Position numbers and translations under genes: made by a program. From positions 44,885 to 108,884 of the forward strand of contig NZ_CAMJFM010000005.1 in the NCBI RefSeq assembly GCF_946404925.1: a stretch of DNA of 64,000 nucleotides, written 5' to 3'. Each line of letters begins with the position of its first letter. Positions within the stretch are counted from its first letter, which is position 1. This document shows positions 3,098-10,942 of this stretch, one piece after another. Below the pieces are notes generated by a model, which made no database searches, was not told the origin of the DNA, and saw only the letters and a list, made by a program, of their open reading frames with translations. This DNA is from an uncultured Prevotella sp. GTDB taxonomy: Bacteria > Bacteroidota > Bacteroidia > Bacteroidales > Bacteroidaceae.

Positions 3098-5035
3098 CTA
3101 CTTCTTTGTGGATTTTACTTTTTTCAGCTCGGCATCGGTTAGGACGGTGACGCGGCGATTGCTTGGGTCGGCTATCACCTCATTCACTATCTCAGTTACC
3201 TGCTGCTTCAGCTCGTCGATAAACTGCTGTGGGTCGTATTTTTGGTGCTCTATGTCGCGGAGCTTTTTCTCCCAGATACCTGTGAGCTCACAACTCTTCA
3301 ACAGCTCCTCGCGTATCAGGTCAATCAGTTCGATACCTGTAGGAGTAGCTATCAGTCGCTTGCGTTCGCGCTTGATGTAGTGGCGCTTAAACAGCGTCTC
3401 GATGATGCCAGCACGACTTGATGGGCGACCTATGCCGTTCTCCTTCATAGCCGCACGTAGCGTCTCATCCTCAACAAACTTACCTGCTGTTTCCATCGCA
3501 CGAAGCAGCGAGGCCTCATTATAATAAGGTGGGGGAGTAGTCCACTTCTCAGTCAGCGTTGGCTTGTGCTCACCACTTTCGCCCTTCACGAAAGTTGGTA
3601 GCGTGCGCTCCTCGTCTTTCTCAGAGGTGAGAGGTGAGGGGTTAGAGGTGAGAGATATGTCTTCTTCTTCCTCTTTCTGCTTATCTTTGCCCTGAACCAC
3701 GCGCCAACCCGGATCAAGTATTTCCTTACCAGTAACCTTAAATTCTACGACTTCATCTGCAGCAGAGTTTTCTCTAGCTTCTAGCTTCTCACCTCTCACC
3801 TCTCCTAAAACAGTTGTTGTCGAAAACTTACAATCGGGCAGGAACACGGCGATAAAACGACGGGCCACCAAGTCGAACACCTTCTGCTCGGCATCGTTCA
3901 GGTTCTGTGGTATCACACCCGTAGGGATGATGGCGTGGTGATCGGTCACCTTCGATGTATCGAACACGCGTTTGCTCTTCTTCAGTGCCTTGCCGCCTAT
4001 GGGCTTGATGAGTTCAGCATAAGGTGCCACACCAGCAAACTTGGTCTGATATAGTCCGTTCAGCGTCTGCGGACATTTGGGGTAGATGTCATCACTCAGA
4101 TACTGCGTGTCAACACGAGGGTAGGTGGTGTACTTCTTCTCGTAGAGACTCTGAATCAGGTTCAGCGTCATCTCGGCCGAGTAGCCGTATTTGCGGTTGC
4201 AGTCTACCTGCAGCGATGTCAGGTCGTACAGCTGTGGTGGCTGCTCCTTACCCTCTTTCTTCTCCACCTTGGTCACCGTGAATGGCTTGCCCTCGATGGT
4301 CTCGAACGCCTTTTCGCCTTCCTCTTTCGAGGTAAACTTACCCTTGGTGGCGGTAAAGGTGGTGTCGCGATATACCGTGGCCAGCACCCAGTAGGGCTCT
4401 GGCTTAAAGTTCTCAATTTCCTTCTGGCGATTCACAATGAGCGCCAGGGTTGGCGTCTGTACACGTCCTATTGATAACACTTGGCGGTTCTGTCCGTATT
4501 TCAGCGTGTAGAGTCGTGTGGCGTTCATGCCTAACAGCCAGTCGCCAATAGCGCGACTCAATCCCGCCAGATACAGCGGCTGGTAATCCTGCTGATCCTT
4601 GAGTTGGGCAAATCCTTCGCGAATGGCCTCGTCTGTCATCGACGATATCCACAATCGCTTCACCGGACAAGTGGCCTGAGCCTTCTGCATCACCCATCGC
4701 TGTATCAGTTCTCCCTCTTGTCCCGCGTCACCGCAGTTCACGATGCTATCGGCCTTTTGCATCAGGCCCTCAATAATCTTAAACTGCTTCTCAATGCCCT
4801 TATCGTTAATCAGTTTGATGCCAAATCGTGGTGGAATCATAGGCAACTGGGTTAGCGCCCATGGTTTCCATGCTTGAGTATAATCGCCGGGCTCCTTCAG
4901 CGTACACAGATGTCCGAAGGTCCACGTCACTTGGTATCCGTTGCCCTCCATATATCCATCGTGCGAGCTGTTAGCCCCTAAGATTCTTGCTATATCCCGA
5001 GCCACACTCGGTTTCTCTGCTATACAGACTATCAT
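3098..5035 (-). CDS. topB: DNA topoisomerase III (TopB-type)
   Basis: MIVCIAEKPSVARDIARILGA, GDAGQEGELIQRW, SIGRVQTPTLALIV, TYPRVDTQYLS, ENGIGRPSSRAGIIETLFKRHYI motifs. Confidence 0.95.
   Translation of the reverse strand: MIVCIAEKPSVARDIARILGANSSHDGYMEGNGYQVTWTFGHLCTLKEPGDYTQAWKPWALTQLPMIPPRFGIKLINDKGIEKQFKIIEGLMQKADSIVNCGDAGQEGELIQRWVMQKAQATCPVKRLWISSMTDEAIREGFAQLKDQQDYQPLYLAGLSRAIGDWLLGMNATRLYTLKYGQNRQVLSIGRVQTPTLALIVNRQKEIENFKPEPYWVLATVYRDTTFTATKGKFTSKEEGEKAFETIEGKPFTVTKVEKKEGKEQPPQLYDLTSLQVDCNRKYGYSAEMTLNLIQSLYEKKYTTYPRVDTQYLSDDIYPKCPQTLNGLYQTKFAGVAPYAELIKPIGGKALKKSKRVFDTSKVTDHHAIIPTGVIPQNLNDAEQKVFDLVARRFIAVFLPDCKFSTTTVLGEVRGEKLEARENSAADEVVEFKVTGKEILDPGWRVVQGKDKQKEEEEDISLTSNPSPLTSEKDEERTLPTFVKGESGEHKPTLTEKWTTPPPYYNEASLLRAMETAGKFVEDETLRAAMKENGIGRPSSRAGIIETLFKRHYIKRERKRLIATPTGIELIDLIREELLKSCELTGIWEKKLRDIEHQKYDPQQFIDELKQQVTEIVNEVIADPSNRRVTVLTDAELKKVKSTKK
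3623..3657. repeat. In-frame heptamer repeat array inside topB (array 1)
   Basis: agaggtg agaggtg aggggtt agaggtg agagata on + strand. Confidence 0.75.
3771..3806. repeat. In-frame heptamer repeat array inside topB (array 2, opposite orientation)
   Basis: ctctagc ttctagc ttctcac ctctcac ctctcct; reverse complement shares 23 bp agaggtgagaggtgagaagctag with the 38984 array. Confidence 0.75.
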
Positions 5036-5139
5036 TTTCTTTTTTATTTTGGATGCAAAAGTACTAAATTCCCACCAATTATTAAACTTTTCGGCGCTTT
5101 TTTCGTCATAAATTGTAGAATAAACCCTATTTTTGTATA

Positions 5140-6456
5140 ATGAAGAAACTATTTATTGTCACTATTCTCATGGCCATGTCGATGTCGATGCGTGCCGAGA
5201 GTCGTAATGTTTTTGTAGAGTTGGGCTATCATCACGCCCAGGTCGAAGCTAAGTTGCATCAGGTTTTCAACGAGGTGTTCCGCGGCCCCAATAAGGTCTA
5301 CTTCGAGGTAGGCGATTCTATGGGCTACGTGAGCGATATCAAGAATCACGATGCCCGTACCGAGGGCATGTCGTATGGCATGATGATAGCCGTGCAGTTT
5401 GGCGAGAAGGATATCTTCGACCGCTTGTGGCGCTGGAGCAAGAAGTATATGCAGCACCAGAGTGGCAATCGCGAGGGCTACTTTGCGTGGAGTTGTAAGA
5501 CCGATGGCACCCATAATGCCGAGGGTGCAGCCAGCGATGGTGAGCTGTATTTTATCACCGCCCTTATCTTTGCCAGCAACCTCTGGGGTAATGATACTGG
5601 TATCAACTATAAGGCCGAGGCCCAGCACATTCTTAACTGCATCCAGCCCAAGGAGTACACCCCCGAGCCACGTCAGGGCGGTTTCCCCGGCTTCGGTCCC
5701 CAGCAGCAGGGCCCTCAGAAGATGTACCTCATCGACCCTACCACCAATCTGATTACCTTTACCCCTGATGGTTTCGGTCAGCGATATACCGACCCTTCTT
5801 ACCACATCCCAGCTTTCTACGAGGTTTGGGCTAAATGGGCCGATGATGGTCGTGCCGACTATTGGCTCAAGTGTGCCCAGGCTTCGCGCGAGTTCCTGCA
5901 CAAAGCCATCAACCCCAAGACAGGATTGAATGCCGATATGTGTCAGTATGATGGTTCTGAGATGCAGATGCCCCGTTTCCCTGGTATGCCACAGCGCCCT
6001 CAGGGAGCCAAGCCACGCCGCAATGGTAGCAACAATTTCCGCTACGACTCATGGCGCGTGCCTATGAACATCACCCTCGACTACGAGTGGAGTGGGGCCG
6101 ATGCCCAATGGCAGAAGCAGTATGGCGAAACCATCCAGAACTTCTTCTACGCCAAGGGTGTAGATAAGTTTGTCGATCAGTATCGCCCCGATGGCTCATT
6201 GCCCGAGGAGGATGAGATTCTGCCCGCAGGTGGTTTCCGCAAGTTGCGCCACAGCATCGGCTTGGTAAGTACCGTTGCCGCCGCCTCCGTTCTCTGCGAT
6301 CATGCCAAGAAGAAGGAGTTTGTTGATGCCTTCTGGAATGCCAAGCACGAGCCCTTCGACGATGGCTACTTTGATGCCTACTACGACGGTCTGCTGCGAC
6401 TCTTCGCATTCATGCACCTCAGCGGACATTACCGTGTAATCGAACCACAGAAATAA
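5140..6456 (+). CDS. Glycoside hydrolase family 8 (xylanase / exo-oligoxylanase-like), secreted
   Basis: Signal peptide; RTEGMSYGMMIAVQ, ASDGELYFITALIFA, LDYEWSGAD motifs typical of GH8. Confidence 0.85.
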   Translation: MKKLFIVTILMAMSMSMRAESRNVFVELGYHHAQVEAKLHQVFNEVFRGPNKVYFEVGDSMGYVSDIKNHDARTEGMSYGMMIAVQFGEKDIFDRLWRWSKKYMQHQSGNREGYFAWSCKTDGTHNAEGAASDGELYFITALIFASNLWGNDTGINYKAEAQHILNCIQPKEYTPEPRQGGFPGFGPQQQGPQKMYLIDPTTNLITFTPDGFGQRYTDPSYHIPAFYEVWAKWADDGRADYWLKCAQASREFLHKAINPKTGLNADMCQYDGSEMQMPRFPGMPQRPQGAKPRRNGSNNFRYDSWRVPMNITLDYEWSGADAQWQKQYGETIQNFFYAKGVDKFVDQYRPDGSLPEEDEILPAGGFRKLRHSIGLVSTVAAASVLCDHAKKKEFVDAFWNAKHEPFDDGYFDAYYDGLLRLFAFMHLSGHYRVIEPQK

Positions 6457-6473
6457 ATTCATTATTTTTAGGT

Positions 6474-6556
6474 ATTGCTTATATTCTAATTATATTATAC
6501 CTTTGCACCCGCAAAACTGCTCAGGATAATATTAATATAATTAGAATATAAGTAAT
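6474..6556. repeat. 24-bp inverted repeat (23/24 match) flanking a 35-bp spacer that carries the -7 box
   Basis: Left arm 6474-6497 attgcttatattctaattatatta; right arm 6533-6556 taatataattagaatataagtaat; perfect over 20 bp (6478-6497 / 6533-6552). Confidence 0.95.
6475..6505 (+). promoter_or_regulatory. Bacteroidales-type promoter (-33 TTG, -7 TACCTTTG) for the TonB-receptor operon
   Basis: TTG at 6475-6477, TACCTTTG at 6498-6505, 20-bp spacing. Confidence 0.75.
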
Positions 6557-8717
6557 GTATAGATTCAACGCAAAACACTCGCTGTGCGCTCTGGCTCTCG
6601 TTGCCTTCTGCAATCAGGCCCAGGCACAGCAGGATCTTCACGATTCAATCGATTTAAAAGAGGTAAAAGTTGTGGGCAAGTCAAAGGCTCGCCGTATGCA
6701 GGAGCAGGCCTACGCCATCTCAGTAGTCGATCTGGCCAAGCAGTATGTGTCAGCCACTCCGCTCAACAAGGTTCTCAACACCGTTACCTCAGTAAAGATA
6801 CGTGAGGAGGGCGGACTGGGATCCAACTACAGCCTGTCAATGAACGGTTTCTCAGGCAATCAGGTAAAGTTCTTCATCGATGGCATCCCCATGGATAACT
6901 TCGGCTCGTCGTTCAACCTTGCCAATATCTCAGCCAACATGGCTGATCGCATAGAGGTTTACAAGGGCGTGCTGCCAGTATATCTTGGTTCCGATGCCCT
7001 TGGCGGAGCAGTAAACATCGTTACCCGCCGCAATGCCAACTATCTTGATGCCACCTATTCAGTAGGCTCATATAACACCCATCGTGCCGCTTTCAATGGT
7101 GTCTATACCTCAAAGGGCGGTTTCACACTGCGTGCCAACGCCTTTGCCAACTATTCCGATAACGATTACAAGGTCTATGCACCTATCGTTGACCTTGCCA
7201 CCAATAAGCAGTTGGGCGAGGACTGGGTACGCCGTTTCAACGATGGCTACCGCTCTTTCGGCATCAAGCTCGAAACAGGTGTTGTAGCTAAGTCGTGGGC
7301 CGACTATCTGCTGCTTGGTGTCATTGCCTCGGCCGATAAGCGCAACGTGCAGACAGGTGCCACAATGGATGCCGTCTATGGTGGTGTTAAGAACAACAGC
7401 TGGTCGGTTATACCTACTATTAGGTATAAGAAGGACGACCTCCTGCTGTCTGGTCTCTCACTCTCGCTCTATGGCACTTACAGCATGGTGAACACCCACA
7501 ATGTCGATACCCTGGCACGTCGTTACAACTGGCTTGGTCAGAGTTTTCCCAGTACGTCGGCTGGCGAGGCCTACCTCACCGATGCTACCATCAGCGAGCG
7601 CCAGTGGCAGGTAAATGCCAACCTAAACTACGTCATCACCGATCATCACTCAGTTACGCTCAACAATGTGTTCTCGGCTCTCCGTCGCAAGAGCGATGAC
7701 AAGATGTATCCCGACTACGAGATGAACAATGTTCCCCAGCAGCTCACCAAGAATATCACTGGTCTGGGCTATCAGATTCGCTACAGCCGTTGGAACGCCA
7801 ACGTGTTCGGTAAGATGTACCGCCTGTATAGCTCAACCAATAAGCTTATGGACCAGTTTACTGATAATCAGCGCTGGGAGAAGCTTTCTGAGCGCAAGCA
7901 CAACTATGGCTATGGTGCTGCTGCCACCTATTATATCCTGCCTTCGCTGCAGGCCAAGGCATCGTTCGAGCATGCCTACCGTATGCCTGAGGCTGTAGAG
8001 ATGTTTGGCGACGGACTTATTCAGAAGAGCAACCCCGACCTTCGTCCTGAGAGCAGCGACAACCTCAACATCGGACTTCTGTTCGACCAGACCTTCAGCG
8101 CTCACCGCTTACAGGCTGAGGTAAATTACATCCACCGCGACACTAAGGACTTCATCCTGCGTGGTGTAAGCCTCTCAAGCAATCCAACTACAAGCTACGA
8201 AAATATCGGACGTGTAAAGACCCGTGGTGTTGAGGCTTCGCTGGGCTATTCATATCGCGATGCCCTCCACGTAAGCGGCAATCTTACCTATCAGAACATC
8301 AAGGACGACCAACAATACCAGACCACCGAGAATACCTTCGTTGGCGATGGCATCATCGAGAATATTACCTATGGTCAACGCCTGCCTAATATCCCTTACC
8401 TGTTTATGAATGGTCATGCCGACTATCAGTTCTTTAACTTCGGTGCTAAGGGCAATACCCTCTCTTTGAACTACGATCTGCAGTATGTTCACGATTATTA
8501 CCTCTCGTTCACAGGTCTGGGTGCCAAGGCCACTAAGAAGGTCATCCCTGAGCAGCTGTCGCACAATGTTTCTGTAGGCTACAGCCTTTGCGATGGTCGC
8601 TACAGCGTAGTGCTCGAGTGCACCGATATCACCAACGCCAAGCTCTACGACAACTATCGTCTGCAGAAGCCAGGTCGTTCGTTCTCGCTCAAGTTCCGTT
8701 ATTATCTCAGCAAGTAA
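6555..8717 (+). CDS. TonB-dependent outer-membrane receptor (XusA-like, siderophore type)
   Basis: Signal peptide; plug domain VKVVGKSKAR..., GIPMDNFGSSFNLANISANMADRIEVYKGVLPVYLGSDALGGAVNIVT; C-terminal beta strand ending SLKFRYYLSK. Confidence 0.93.
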   Translation: MYRFNAKHSLCALALVAFCNQAQAQQDLHDSIDLKEVKVVGKSKARRMQEQAYAISVVDLAKQYVSATPLNKVLNTVTSVKIREEGGLGSNYSLSMNGFSGNQVKFFIDGIPMDNFGSSFNLANISANMADRIEVYKGVLPVYLGSDALGGAVNIVTRRNANYLDATYSVGSYNTHRAAFNGVYTSKGGFTLRANAFANYSDNDYKVYAPIVDLATNKQLGEDWVRRFNDGYRSFGIKLETGVVAKSWADYLLLGVIASADKRNVQTGATMDAVYGGVKNNSWSVIPTIRYKKDDLLLSGLSLSLYGTYSMVNTHNVDTLARRYNWLGQSFPSTSAGEAYLTDATISERQWQVNANLNYVITDHHSVTLNNVFSALRRKSDDKMYPDYEMNNVPQQLTKNITGLGYQIRYSRWNANVFGKMYRLYSSTNKLMDQFTDNQRWEKLSERKHNYGYGAAATYYILPSLQAKASFEHAYRMPEAVEMFGDGLIQKSNPDLRPESSDNLNIGLLFDQTFSAHRLQAEVNYIHRDTKDFILRGVSLSSNPTTSYENIGRVKTRGVEASLGYSYRDALHVSGNLTYQNIKDDQQYQTTENTFVGDGIIENITYGQRLPNIPYLFMNGHADYQFFNFGAKGNTLSLNYDLQYVHDYYLSFTGLGAKATKKVIPEQLSHNVSVGYSLCDGRYSVVLECTDITNAKLYDNYRLQKPGRSFSLKFRYYLSK

Positions 8718-8747
8718 TCCATACGTTTTTAATACAATATATAAGAA

Positions 8748-9962
8748 ATGAAAAATATTTATCTCAATATAATGCTCCTAATGGCTGCAGTAGCCTTCAC
8801 ATCGTGCGACGATAACCTCTCTGACGAGCAGGAGCAGCCTGGTGCCCCCTACGTCCTCAGTCTGGGCGTAACCTCAAACGGCAACACCACCTACTACGTT
8901 GTTTCTACTGCCGACCTCATGTCGGGCACCATCAATGCCGTGGGTAAGGGCATCGAGCAGACAGGCTATCACGACTACCAGCAGGGCAGTAATTCAGTGT
9001 TCTGTATCGGAGGCATGGGAGTTACCAACGCCACAGCCGTTGTTCGTGGTGCCGATGGTCTGCTTAAGGAGCAGGGAGAGTTTGTTTTCGACAGCTCGCT
9101 CGATGGTCTCTGTCAGGTTGATGCCAACACAATGGTTGGTCTCGAGCTGCCAGCCACCAAGCAGAGCGGTCAGCAGCTCACCTTTTATACCGTCGATGCC
9201 AATAGCGCTGCCATTCTCGGCAAGAACACCACGGTAAGTGTCGATTCCATCAGCACCCTCGACTGGCCCAGCATCACTGGCATGCAGTATAGCGGTGGCA
9301 ACCTCTACGTAACCTACACCCCAATGAACCCCCTCACCTTCGAGACAGCCTATACCGACACCTGCTTTGTGGCAGTATATAGCTATCCCGATATGCAGTT
9401 CGTTACGCTCATGAAGAGCTCTCAGATGGGCCCTGGTGGTTCTTGGAACGCCTTCAACGGCATGGTTAAGGACGAGTCAGATAACATCTATGTAATGTCA
9501 AACTCAGCCCTCTCTAACGGCTATTCTCAGAGCACCAAGCACGCTGCCTTCCTCCGTATCAACAAGGGTGCAACCCAGTTCGATGCCGACTACTATTTCG
9601 ACTTCGAGGCAGCCACAGGTGGACTCAAGCCCGCCCACATCACCTATATCGGAGACGGCAAAGTGTTTGCTGAGGTCAGCACCCTTAATCCTCAGACAGC
9701 TGCCGATCGTTGGGGCGATAAGAGTCTTAAATGCTGCATCATCGACCTTGTAAACAAGATAGTTACCGACGTCGAGGGTATCCCCGTTCATAATGGCAAT
9801 GGCGGTCGTCGTTTCGCCTGTCTCGTTGATGGTAGCAGTGTCTATCTGCCAGTCTCTACTGCCGATGGCCTCTATATTTATCGTACCGATGTAGCCACAG
9901 CCCGTGCTCAGCGTGGTGCCCGTATCTCGGCCACCTTCATCGGTGGATTCTTCAAATTGTAA
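8748..9962 (+). CDS. DUF4374 surface lipoprotein (XusB-like)
   Basis: Lipobox AAVAFTSCDDN; YVLSLGVTSNGNTTYYVVSTADLMSGTINAVGKGIEQTGYHDYQQ typical of DUF4374; 30 bp downstream of the receptor. Confidence 0.85.
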   Translation: MKNIYLNIMLLMAAVAFTSCDDNLSDEQEQPGAPYVLSLGVTSNGNTTYYVVSTADLMSGTINAVGKGIEQTGYHDYQQGSNSVFCIGGMGVTNATAVVRGADGLLKEQGEFVFDSSLDGLCQVDANTMVGLELPATKQSGQQLTFYTVDANSAAILGKNTTVSVDSISTLDWPSITGMQYSGGNLYVTYTPMNPLTFETAYTDTCFVAVYSYPDMQFVTLMKSSQMGPGGSWNAFNGMVKDESDNIYVMSNSALSNGYSQSTKHAAFLRINKGATQFDADYYFDFEAATGGLKPAHITYIGDGKVFAEVSTLNPQTAADRWGDKSLKCCIIDLVNKIVTDVEGIPVHNGNGGRRFACLVDGSSVYLPVSTADGLYIYRTDVATARAQRGARISATFIGGFFKL

Positions 9963-9982
9963 AAAAATACTTTGACTTATCC

Positions 9983-10013
9983 TTTGTTTATAGCGTATTT
10001 TTGTGTACCTTTG
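9983..10013 (+). promoter_or_regulatory. Promoter for EamA transporter
   Basis: TTTG (9983-9986), 19-bp spacer, TACCTTTG (10006-10013). Confidence 0.7.
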
Positions 10014-10045
10014 CACCCCGAATACTGAATATAGACAAAAATTAA

Positions 10046-10942
10046 ATGAAAAGTCATCGCTTTCTTTATCATATAGTAGCGCTCCTGGTGGCATCCATCT
10101 GGGGCTCTACTTTTATTTTCACTAAGCTGCTGTTGCTTGGAGGCATGACCGCAGCCCAGATTTTTGTGCTCCGTTTTGCCATAGCCTACGTGCTGCTGTT
10201 GGCCTATTCGCTCTATAAGGGCGGCAGGTTGTTTGCCTGCTCTTGGCGACATGAGTTGCTCATGGCCATGCTTGGTGTTGTTGGCGGTTCGCTCTATTTC
10301 CTTACCGAGAACAACGCCATGAACTACACTACCACTACCAACACCTCCATCATCGTTAGCCTCTGTCCGCTGTTTGCCTCCGCCCTCATAGGCATTGTCT
10401 ATAAGTCGCAGCGCTTGAATCGCATTCAGACCATTGGTACGCTGATGGCTGCGGCTGGCATGGCGGTTGTGGTTTTGAACGGACATTTTGTGCTCCACCT
10501 GTCGCCTCTTGGCGATTGCCTCGCCTTTATGGCGTGCCTCTGCTGGGCGTTCTACAGTCTGCTAATGATTCCCGCAGGCAAGCGTTACAACACTGTTTTC
10601 ATCACCCGCAAGGTGTTCTTCTACGGCCTTGTCTCCATGATACCTTATTTCATGGTCTATCCTGGCCTTGGGGTCGACATTGTTCTCAGTCAACCCAAGC
10701 TTCTTGCCAACCTTCTGTTCCTGGGTTGCGTGGCCTCTATGGGCTGCTTCCTCGCTTGGAACTGGGTGCTCAAGAAGCTTGGCGCCGTCATCGTCACCAA
10801 CTACGTCTATTTCAACCCCGTAGTCACCGTCATCTTCGCTTGGGCCATCCTCAGCGAGCAGATTACCCTCTACTTCGTTCTCGGCACCGCCCTCATCCTG
10901 GTTGGTATGTATCTGGCGGATAAACGTAATAGCAATCAGTAA
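10046..10942 (+). CDS. EamA/DMT family transporter
   Basis: 10 hydrophobic segments; ASIWGSTFIFTKLLL and repeated EamA motifs. Confidence 0.92.
   Translation: MKSHRFLYHIVALLVASIWGSTFIFTKLLLLGGMTAAQIFVLRFAIAYVLLLAYSLYKGGRLFACSWRHELLMAMLGVVGGSLYFLTENNAMNYTTTTNTSIIVSLCPLFASALIGIVYKSQRLNRIQTIGTLMAAAGMAVVVLNGHFVLHLSPLGDCLAFMACLCWAFYSLLMIPAGKRYNTVFITRKVFFYGLVSMIPYFMVYPGLGVDIVLSQPKLLANLLFLGCVASMGCFLAWNWVLKKLGAVIVTNYVYFNPVVTVIFAWAILSEQITLYFVLGTALILVGMYLADKRNSNQ

Follow-up and report, generated by a model that had tools for sequence, protein, structure and literature searches.

Why should the promoter of an outer-membrane receptor operon be enclosed by a long inverted repeat, the second arm of which runs into the start codon? 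The locus that raises this question lies in a 64000 nt stretch of DNA (the window) from an uncultured rumen Prevotella sp. of the Xylanibacter/Prevotella ruminicola group, the closest orthologues of the receptor having 92–94% identity at the protein level. The arms (6474–6497 and 6533–6556) are each 24 nt long, complementary at 23 of 24 positions with a perfect inner 20 bp, and separated by a spacer of 35 nt. The promoter is placed as the first-pass annotation had described it, with the −33 TTG within the left arm, the −7 element TACCTTTG opening the spacer and the right arm ending at the AT of the start codon (ATG at 6555); no earlier start is possible, since the reading frame has a stop two codons 5′ of this ATG. 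As the sole DNA mismatch of the arms, G6477 against T6553, is a G·U pair in coding-strand RNA, the RNA helix comprises all 24 pairs. The features discussed here are collected in Table 1.

Table 1. Features of the receptor operon and its upstream region (positions in the window)
Feature	Position	Strand	Basis
GH8 family glycoside hydrolase, co-oriented upstream neighbour	5140..6456	+	Protein matches
Conserved element TTCATTATTTTTAGGTATTG overlapping the −33 element; candidate regulator operator, distinct from the repeat	6458..6477	+	Orthologue comparison
Left arm, 5′ strand of the helix; spans the −33 to −7 gap	6474..6497	+	Sequence, folding, covariation
−33 element TTG	6475..6477	+	Sequence; invariant in 8/8 clade sequences; consensus from PMC7366714
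−7 element TACCTTTG, Bacteroidota housekeeping sigma factor	6498..6505	+	TACCTTTGCACCCG invariant in 8/8 clade sequences
Predicted 5′ UTR of own-promoter mRNA, weakly structured	6511..6554	+	Start inferred approx. 6 nt past TTTG
Right arm, 3′ strand of the helix; final 22 nt of the 5′ UTR plus AU of AUG	6533..6556	+	Sequence, folding, covariation
TonB-dependent receptor, siderophore-receptor-like (XusA-like)	6555..8717	+	Protein matches
DUF4374 protein, in the same family as the siderophore-binding lipoprotein XusB	8748..9962	+	Protein matches; PMC13142918

The inverted repeat is real and not a product of chance: no repeat with at least 23 of 24 matches and a loop of up to 100 nt was present in 928 kb of block-shuffled sequence, and shuffling the surrounding 250 nt (6400–6649) 2000 times likewise gave none with at least 23 of 24 matches. 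In 464 kb of real sequence from the same genome, 400 kb of which was sampled as stretches, we found two further repeats of that grade (L187 and L200), both of which have the look of ordinary hairpins between genes, with one resembling a terminator. The arms are AT-rich and near-identical, with an 11 bp direct repeat (TTATATTCTAA-TTATATT) inside them. We rejected the idea that the arm is a dispersed repeat, since its exact sequence has a single match in the genome, at 6474–6556 itself; an arm pair with two mismatches occurs on contig C34, near a coding sequence that by eye resembles an excinuclease gene. A DNA search with the 83 bp segment matched mostly the promoter core, and the only Rfam match was to a miRNA model, well short of its cut-off at 22 against 67 bits, a generic hairpin match. 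Elsewhere in the window, a long imperfect inverted repeat with GAGAGGTGAG-type units lies at 3623–3804 within a minus-strand topoisomerase-like gene.

Judged by gene order, a TonB-dependent receptor followed by a DUF4374 lipoprotein, the operon is a putative XusAB-type siderophore (iron-scavenging) operon, the siderophore-binding lipoprotein XusB being a member of the DUF4374 family (PMC13142918). A PepSY/XusC gene is absent directly 3′ of the DUF4374 gene, where an EamA gene comes next. In Bacteroides thetaiotaomicron, iron limitation raises expression of the xusABC operon (BT2063–2065) 489- to 676-fold (PMC10434189), so leaky expression would matter. The stop codon of the GH8 gene is 18 nt 5′ of the −33 TTG; no terminator-like site was found on the plus strand within 5000–10100, and the interval from the GH8 gene to the repeat in the source genome has no terminator. 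More distant homologues of the receptor (36–38% identity; L028–L032, L037 and L038) are preceded by leaders that contain motifs resembling those of a cobalamin riboswitch (GCCACTG...GGGAAGGC...GCCAGGAAACCTGCC), which suggests that they are B12-type receptors, and these were excluded from the covariation set because their leader differs. In the Pedobacter and Mucilaginibacter orthologues (L092 and L112), GC-rich hairpins lie between promoter and ATG.

The left arm would be contained solely in mRNA started upstream of the operon's own promoter, and the geometry of the repeat therefore predicts two classes of mRNA with opposite accessibility of the start site. RNA beginning at 6457 was predicted to form the complete helix (−34.6 kcal/mol, z of −4.3 against shuffles), and RNA beginning at 6511 to have almost no structure, no better than its shuffles. 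When the 5′ end was stepped downstream, the mean unpaired probability near the AUG was 0.09–0.17 while the left arm was present (0.09–0.14 for 5′ ends up to 6470) and approx. 0.55 for 5′ ends from 6495 on, and a left arm scrambled without change of composition left the start region open (unpaired 0.47 ± 0.09). The helix, with a duplex energy of −25, spans nucleotides −22 to +2 of the receptor gene. Translation in Prevotella bryantii involves no functional Shine–Dalgarno contact, and structures at the start site with energies of −5.2 and −11.1 kcal/mol left 0.12 and 0.007 of the protein respectively, i.e. an 8- to 140-fold cut, in a species where a hairpin of −9 kcal/mol located 20 nt upstream was harmless (PMC3155529). 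Given the extent and energy of the helix at this locus, a strong translational block would be expected in mRNA that carries both arms.

We then asked whether relatives keep the pairing. An alignment of eight ruminicola-group genomes showed that the −33 element, TACCTTTGCACCCG and the upstream TTTTTAGGTATTG blocks are conserved, whereas the 20 nt that separate −33 from −7 vary, as do the nucleotides preceding the ATG. Although both arm sequences change, arm-to-arm pairing is kept in seven of the eight genomes, the source included, and in each of these the helix is near the start codon or overlaps it. RNAalifold recovered the helix unaided from the eight clade sequences, with 14 pairs and 83% of cells paired; seven of the 14 pairs had changed on both sides, in 15 such cells. 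Column pair 13/86, for example, is U-A in four sequences and C-G in three, pair 16/83 is U-A or A-U, and pair 18/81 is evenly split, four sequences having A-U and four U-A. The helix scored 0.388 for covariation, compared with 0.205 ± 0.037 for shuffles, none of 500 of which reached it, and with at most 0.125 for slid registers. In a duplex test, the windows of which were chosen after the repeat had already been seen, native left/right combinations paired better than swapped ones (permutation P of 5e-5 with 15 sequences, and of 8e-4 when the set was nine distant representatives).

The pairing also has a strand preference. The coding-strand duplex is stronger than that of the minus strand in six of the eight clade sequences, and the retained non-Watson–Crick pairs are mostly coding-strand G·U; in L050 all three DNA mismatches are of this kind, with duplex energies of −23.0 kcal/mol (coding) and −10.1 kcal/mol (minus). 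Within the ruminicola group, the helix is kept via compensatory change. Support for a conserved helix beyond this group is weak: partial complementarity was seen in L152, L149 and L150 and no pairing in L151, L153, L154 and L155, and the short mRNA of L149 and L150 showed no predicted gain of start-site accessibility. Among 74 promoter–start units (−33 TTG plus −7) in the 464 kb of own-genome sequence, the repeat locus was the sole outlier (z of about −7 to −8, the others around 0), and eight of the nine strongest of 178 units in 1.5 Mb of loci were the operon or its orthologues. Start-site pairing as a general Prevotella property was rejected, the mean z being near 0 over 74–219 control units.

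The best explanation, and one that we consider probable, is that the repeat acts as a translational insulator sensitive to read-through. RNA polymerase arriving from the GH8 gene, with no terminator on its way, would produce mRNA carrying both arms; these would pair into a 24 bp helix over the receptor start region and block a ribosome that works independently of Shine–Dalgarno contacts. mRNA from the operon's own promoter would begin 3′ of the left arm, at approx. 6511, form no helix and be translated, and the siderophore-type receptor would be made only upon firing of this promoter, which is probably iron-controlled. The first-pass annotation had put forward three models, an invertible promoter, an insulator that folds read-through mRNA and a long operator for an iron-type regulator; the second is well supported by the coding-strand covariation and by the predicted openness of the own-promoter mRNA, and the first and, as far as the arms are concerned, the third are not supported, as set out below.

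Modelled in this way, the arrangement equals that of phage T4 gene e, T4 I-TevI and Bacillus subtilis sigG, for which the mechanism is already known: the long RNA is predicted to hold a stable helix and the short RNA an open start, and the 5′ strand lies upstream of the presumed own start site with the 3′ strand over the start region. The T4 genes e (lysozyme), soc, 49 and I-TevI have start-site hairpins in long early transcripts, and that of gene e cuts translation approx. 100-fold (PMC3014915). As would be the case here, long transcripts of these genes started upstream sequester the start, whereas own-promoter mRNA lacks the 5′ strand and is translated, and the own promoter likewise sits in the DNA that encodes the 5′ strand of the hairpin (PMC3014915). 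The T4 cases differ in that they serve phage temporal control at Shine–Dalgarno starts, whereas the present one is a chromosomal nutrient operon of a non-Shine–Dalgarno bacterium, known from sequence. The spoIIG-sigG region of B. subtilis is closer in being chromosomal, with 20 or more complementary base pairs around a promoter and a helix only in read-through mRNA (PMC5942855). It belongs, however, to another phylum, concerns a developmental sigma factor and has no sequence relation to our locus. In IS10/Tn10, an inverted repeat in transcripts that enter from outside reportedly folds so as to cover the start of the transposase gene (Davis, Simons and Kleckner, 1985), but there the repeat is part of a transposon end, whereas here no mobile element is involved. 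Among the open-licence papers searched, we found no comparable case from the Bacteroidota.

The proposed insulator makes a testable case of how a non-Shine–Dalgarno bacterium could silence a strongly inducible iron-uptake operon beside a terminator-less neighbour. As a speculation to which we give only a small chance, start-occluding helices that straddle promoters could serve generally for insulation in Bacteroidota, where start sites lack Shine–Dalgarno sequences and are very sensitive to structure. At uptake operons under tight control they could be traded off against terminators, and some of the promoter-associated repeats that are listed in their hundreds as candidate invertons could be RNA insulators.

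If the helix insulates, the placement of terminators is of interest. A terminator-like hairpin lies just 5′ of the promoter in five relatives (L050, L051, L052, L053 and L057); the source genome, L049 and L065 have none, and all three keep the helix. The sole clade genome that has lost the pairing, L052, carries a long terminator-like hairpin. As L050 and L053 combine strong pairing with a terminator, the two are no simple mutual replacement. The distribution fits insulation, eight related genomes being too few for a claim. L049 and L065 also have an extra gene between GH8 and receptor, the TAG stop codon of which lies inside TTTTTAGGTATTG, 3 nt before the −33 TTG.

These relatives also bear on an unlikely alternative, that the helix in GH8–receptor read-through mRNA is an RNase III site at which the two mRNAs are separated, with start occlusion secondary. 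A helix of 24 bp is a plausible RNase III substrate, and identical covariation would arise. Cutting would not, however, require the helix to be near or on the start codon, where all seven genomes that keep it have it, and the helix is retained in genomes whose two genes are already set apart by a terminator. RNase III processing may take place beside or instead of occlusion, and cutting of the helix could free the start rather than block it, a counterpoint to insulation.

Equally improbable in our view is a double operator, with a dimeric regulator bound to each arm, or looping both, and so closing the promoter. The left arm does occupy the usual position of a repressor, between −33 and −7, and arms that are AT-rich, near-identical and contain a direct repeat would suit such a protein, but the orthologues keep arm-to-arm complementarity and not arm sequence, and it is because the pairing is conserved whereas the sequence is not that an operator in the arms is unsupported. 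The retained coding-strand G·U pairs are tolerated in RNA and not favoured by a DNA palindrome, the exact arm occurs at one locus only, and the block that is conserved is 6458–6477 rather than the arms.

An inverton, in which a recombinase flips the 35 bp spacer and turns the receptor on or off, is very unlikely. The locus shares with Bacteroidales invertons an inverted repeat flanking a promoter, with a perfect 20 bp core, a promoter element within the spacer and a surface receptor gene downstream; invertible promoters are common in this order, and tyrosine recombinases are found elsewhere in the draft genome. There is nevertheless no sign of inversion: in the related genomes, which the first-pass annotation had proposed to compare for inverted alleles, the spacer (TACCTTTGCACCCG...) points the same way in every orthologue. 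The arms diverge between species, are mismatched as DNA in L050, L049 and L053, and are unique to one locus of the genome. No recombinase is nearby (none of four integrase-family matches is on contig C5), and a serine recombinase or resolvase was not found in the draft genome. In addition, the spacer is very short, and with arms 59 bp apart from centre to centre recombination would demand very tight looping of the DNA. An inverted repeat at a Bacteroidales promoter need not be a DNA switch, and no sequencing reads are required to tell inverton and RNA insulator apart when coding-strand covariation among relatives is used; scans for candidate invertons take in every repeat of this kind, with 569 promoter-associated ones in B. 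thetaiotaomicron (PMC10994844). Least credible of all is a functionless AT-rich accident perfected by template-switch correction of a quasi-palindrome, which could account for the perfection of the arms in the source genome (the three left-arm differences between the window and L050 could be one such event) but not for the covariation, given the double changes that arose independently on the branch of L051, L053 and L057, the advantage of native over swapped pairs and the uniqueness of the locus among the 74 units.

The conserved element TTCATTATTTTTAGGTATTG, which is separate from the proposed insulator, is by comparison of orthologues a candidate iron or redox regulator site. In several Bacteroidales orthologues it forms part of an imperfect palindrome (AATACCTA..TAGGTATT or AATCACTA..TAGGTATT; upstream regions of L055, L056, L058 and L061), and in L175 a similar element lies 5′ of a gene that, judged by eye, resembles those for hemerythrin/iron-sulfur-repair proteins.
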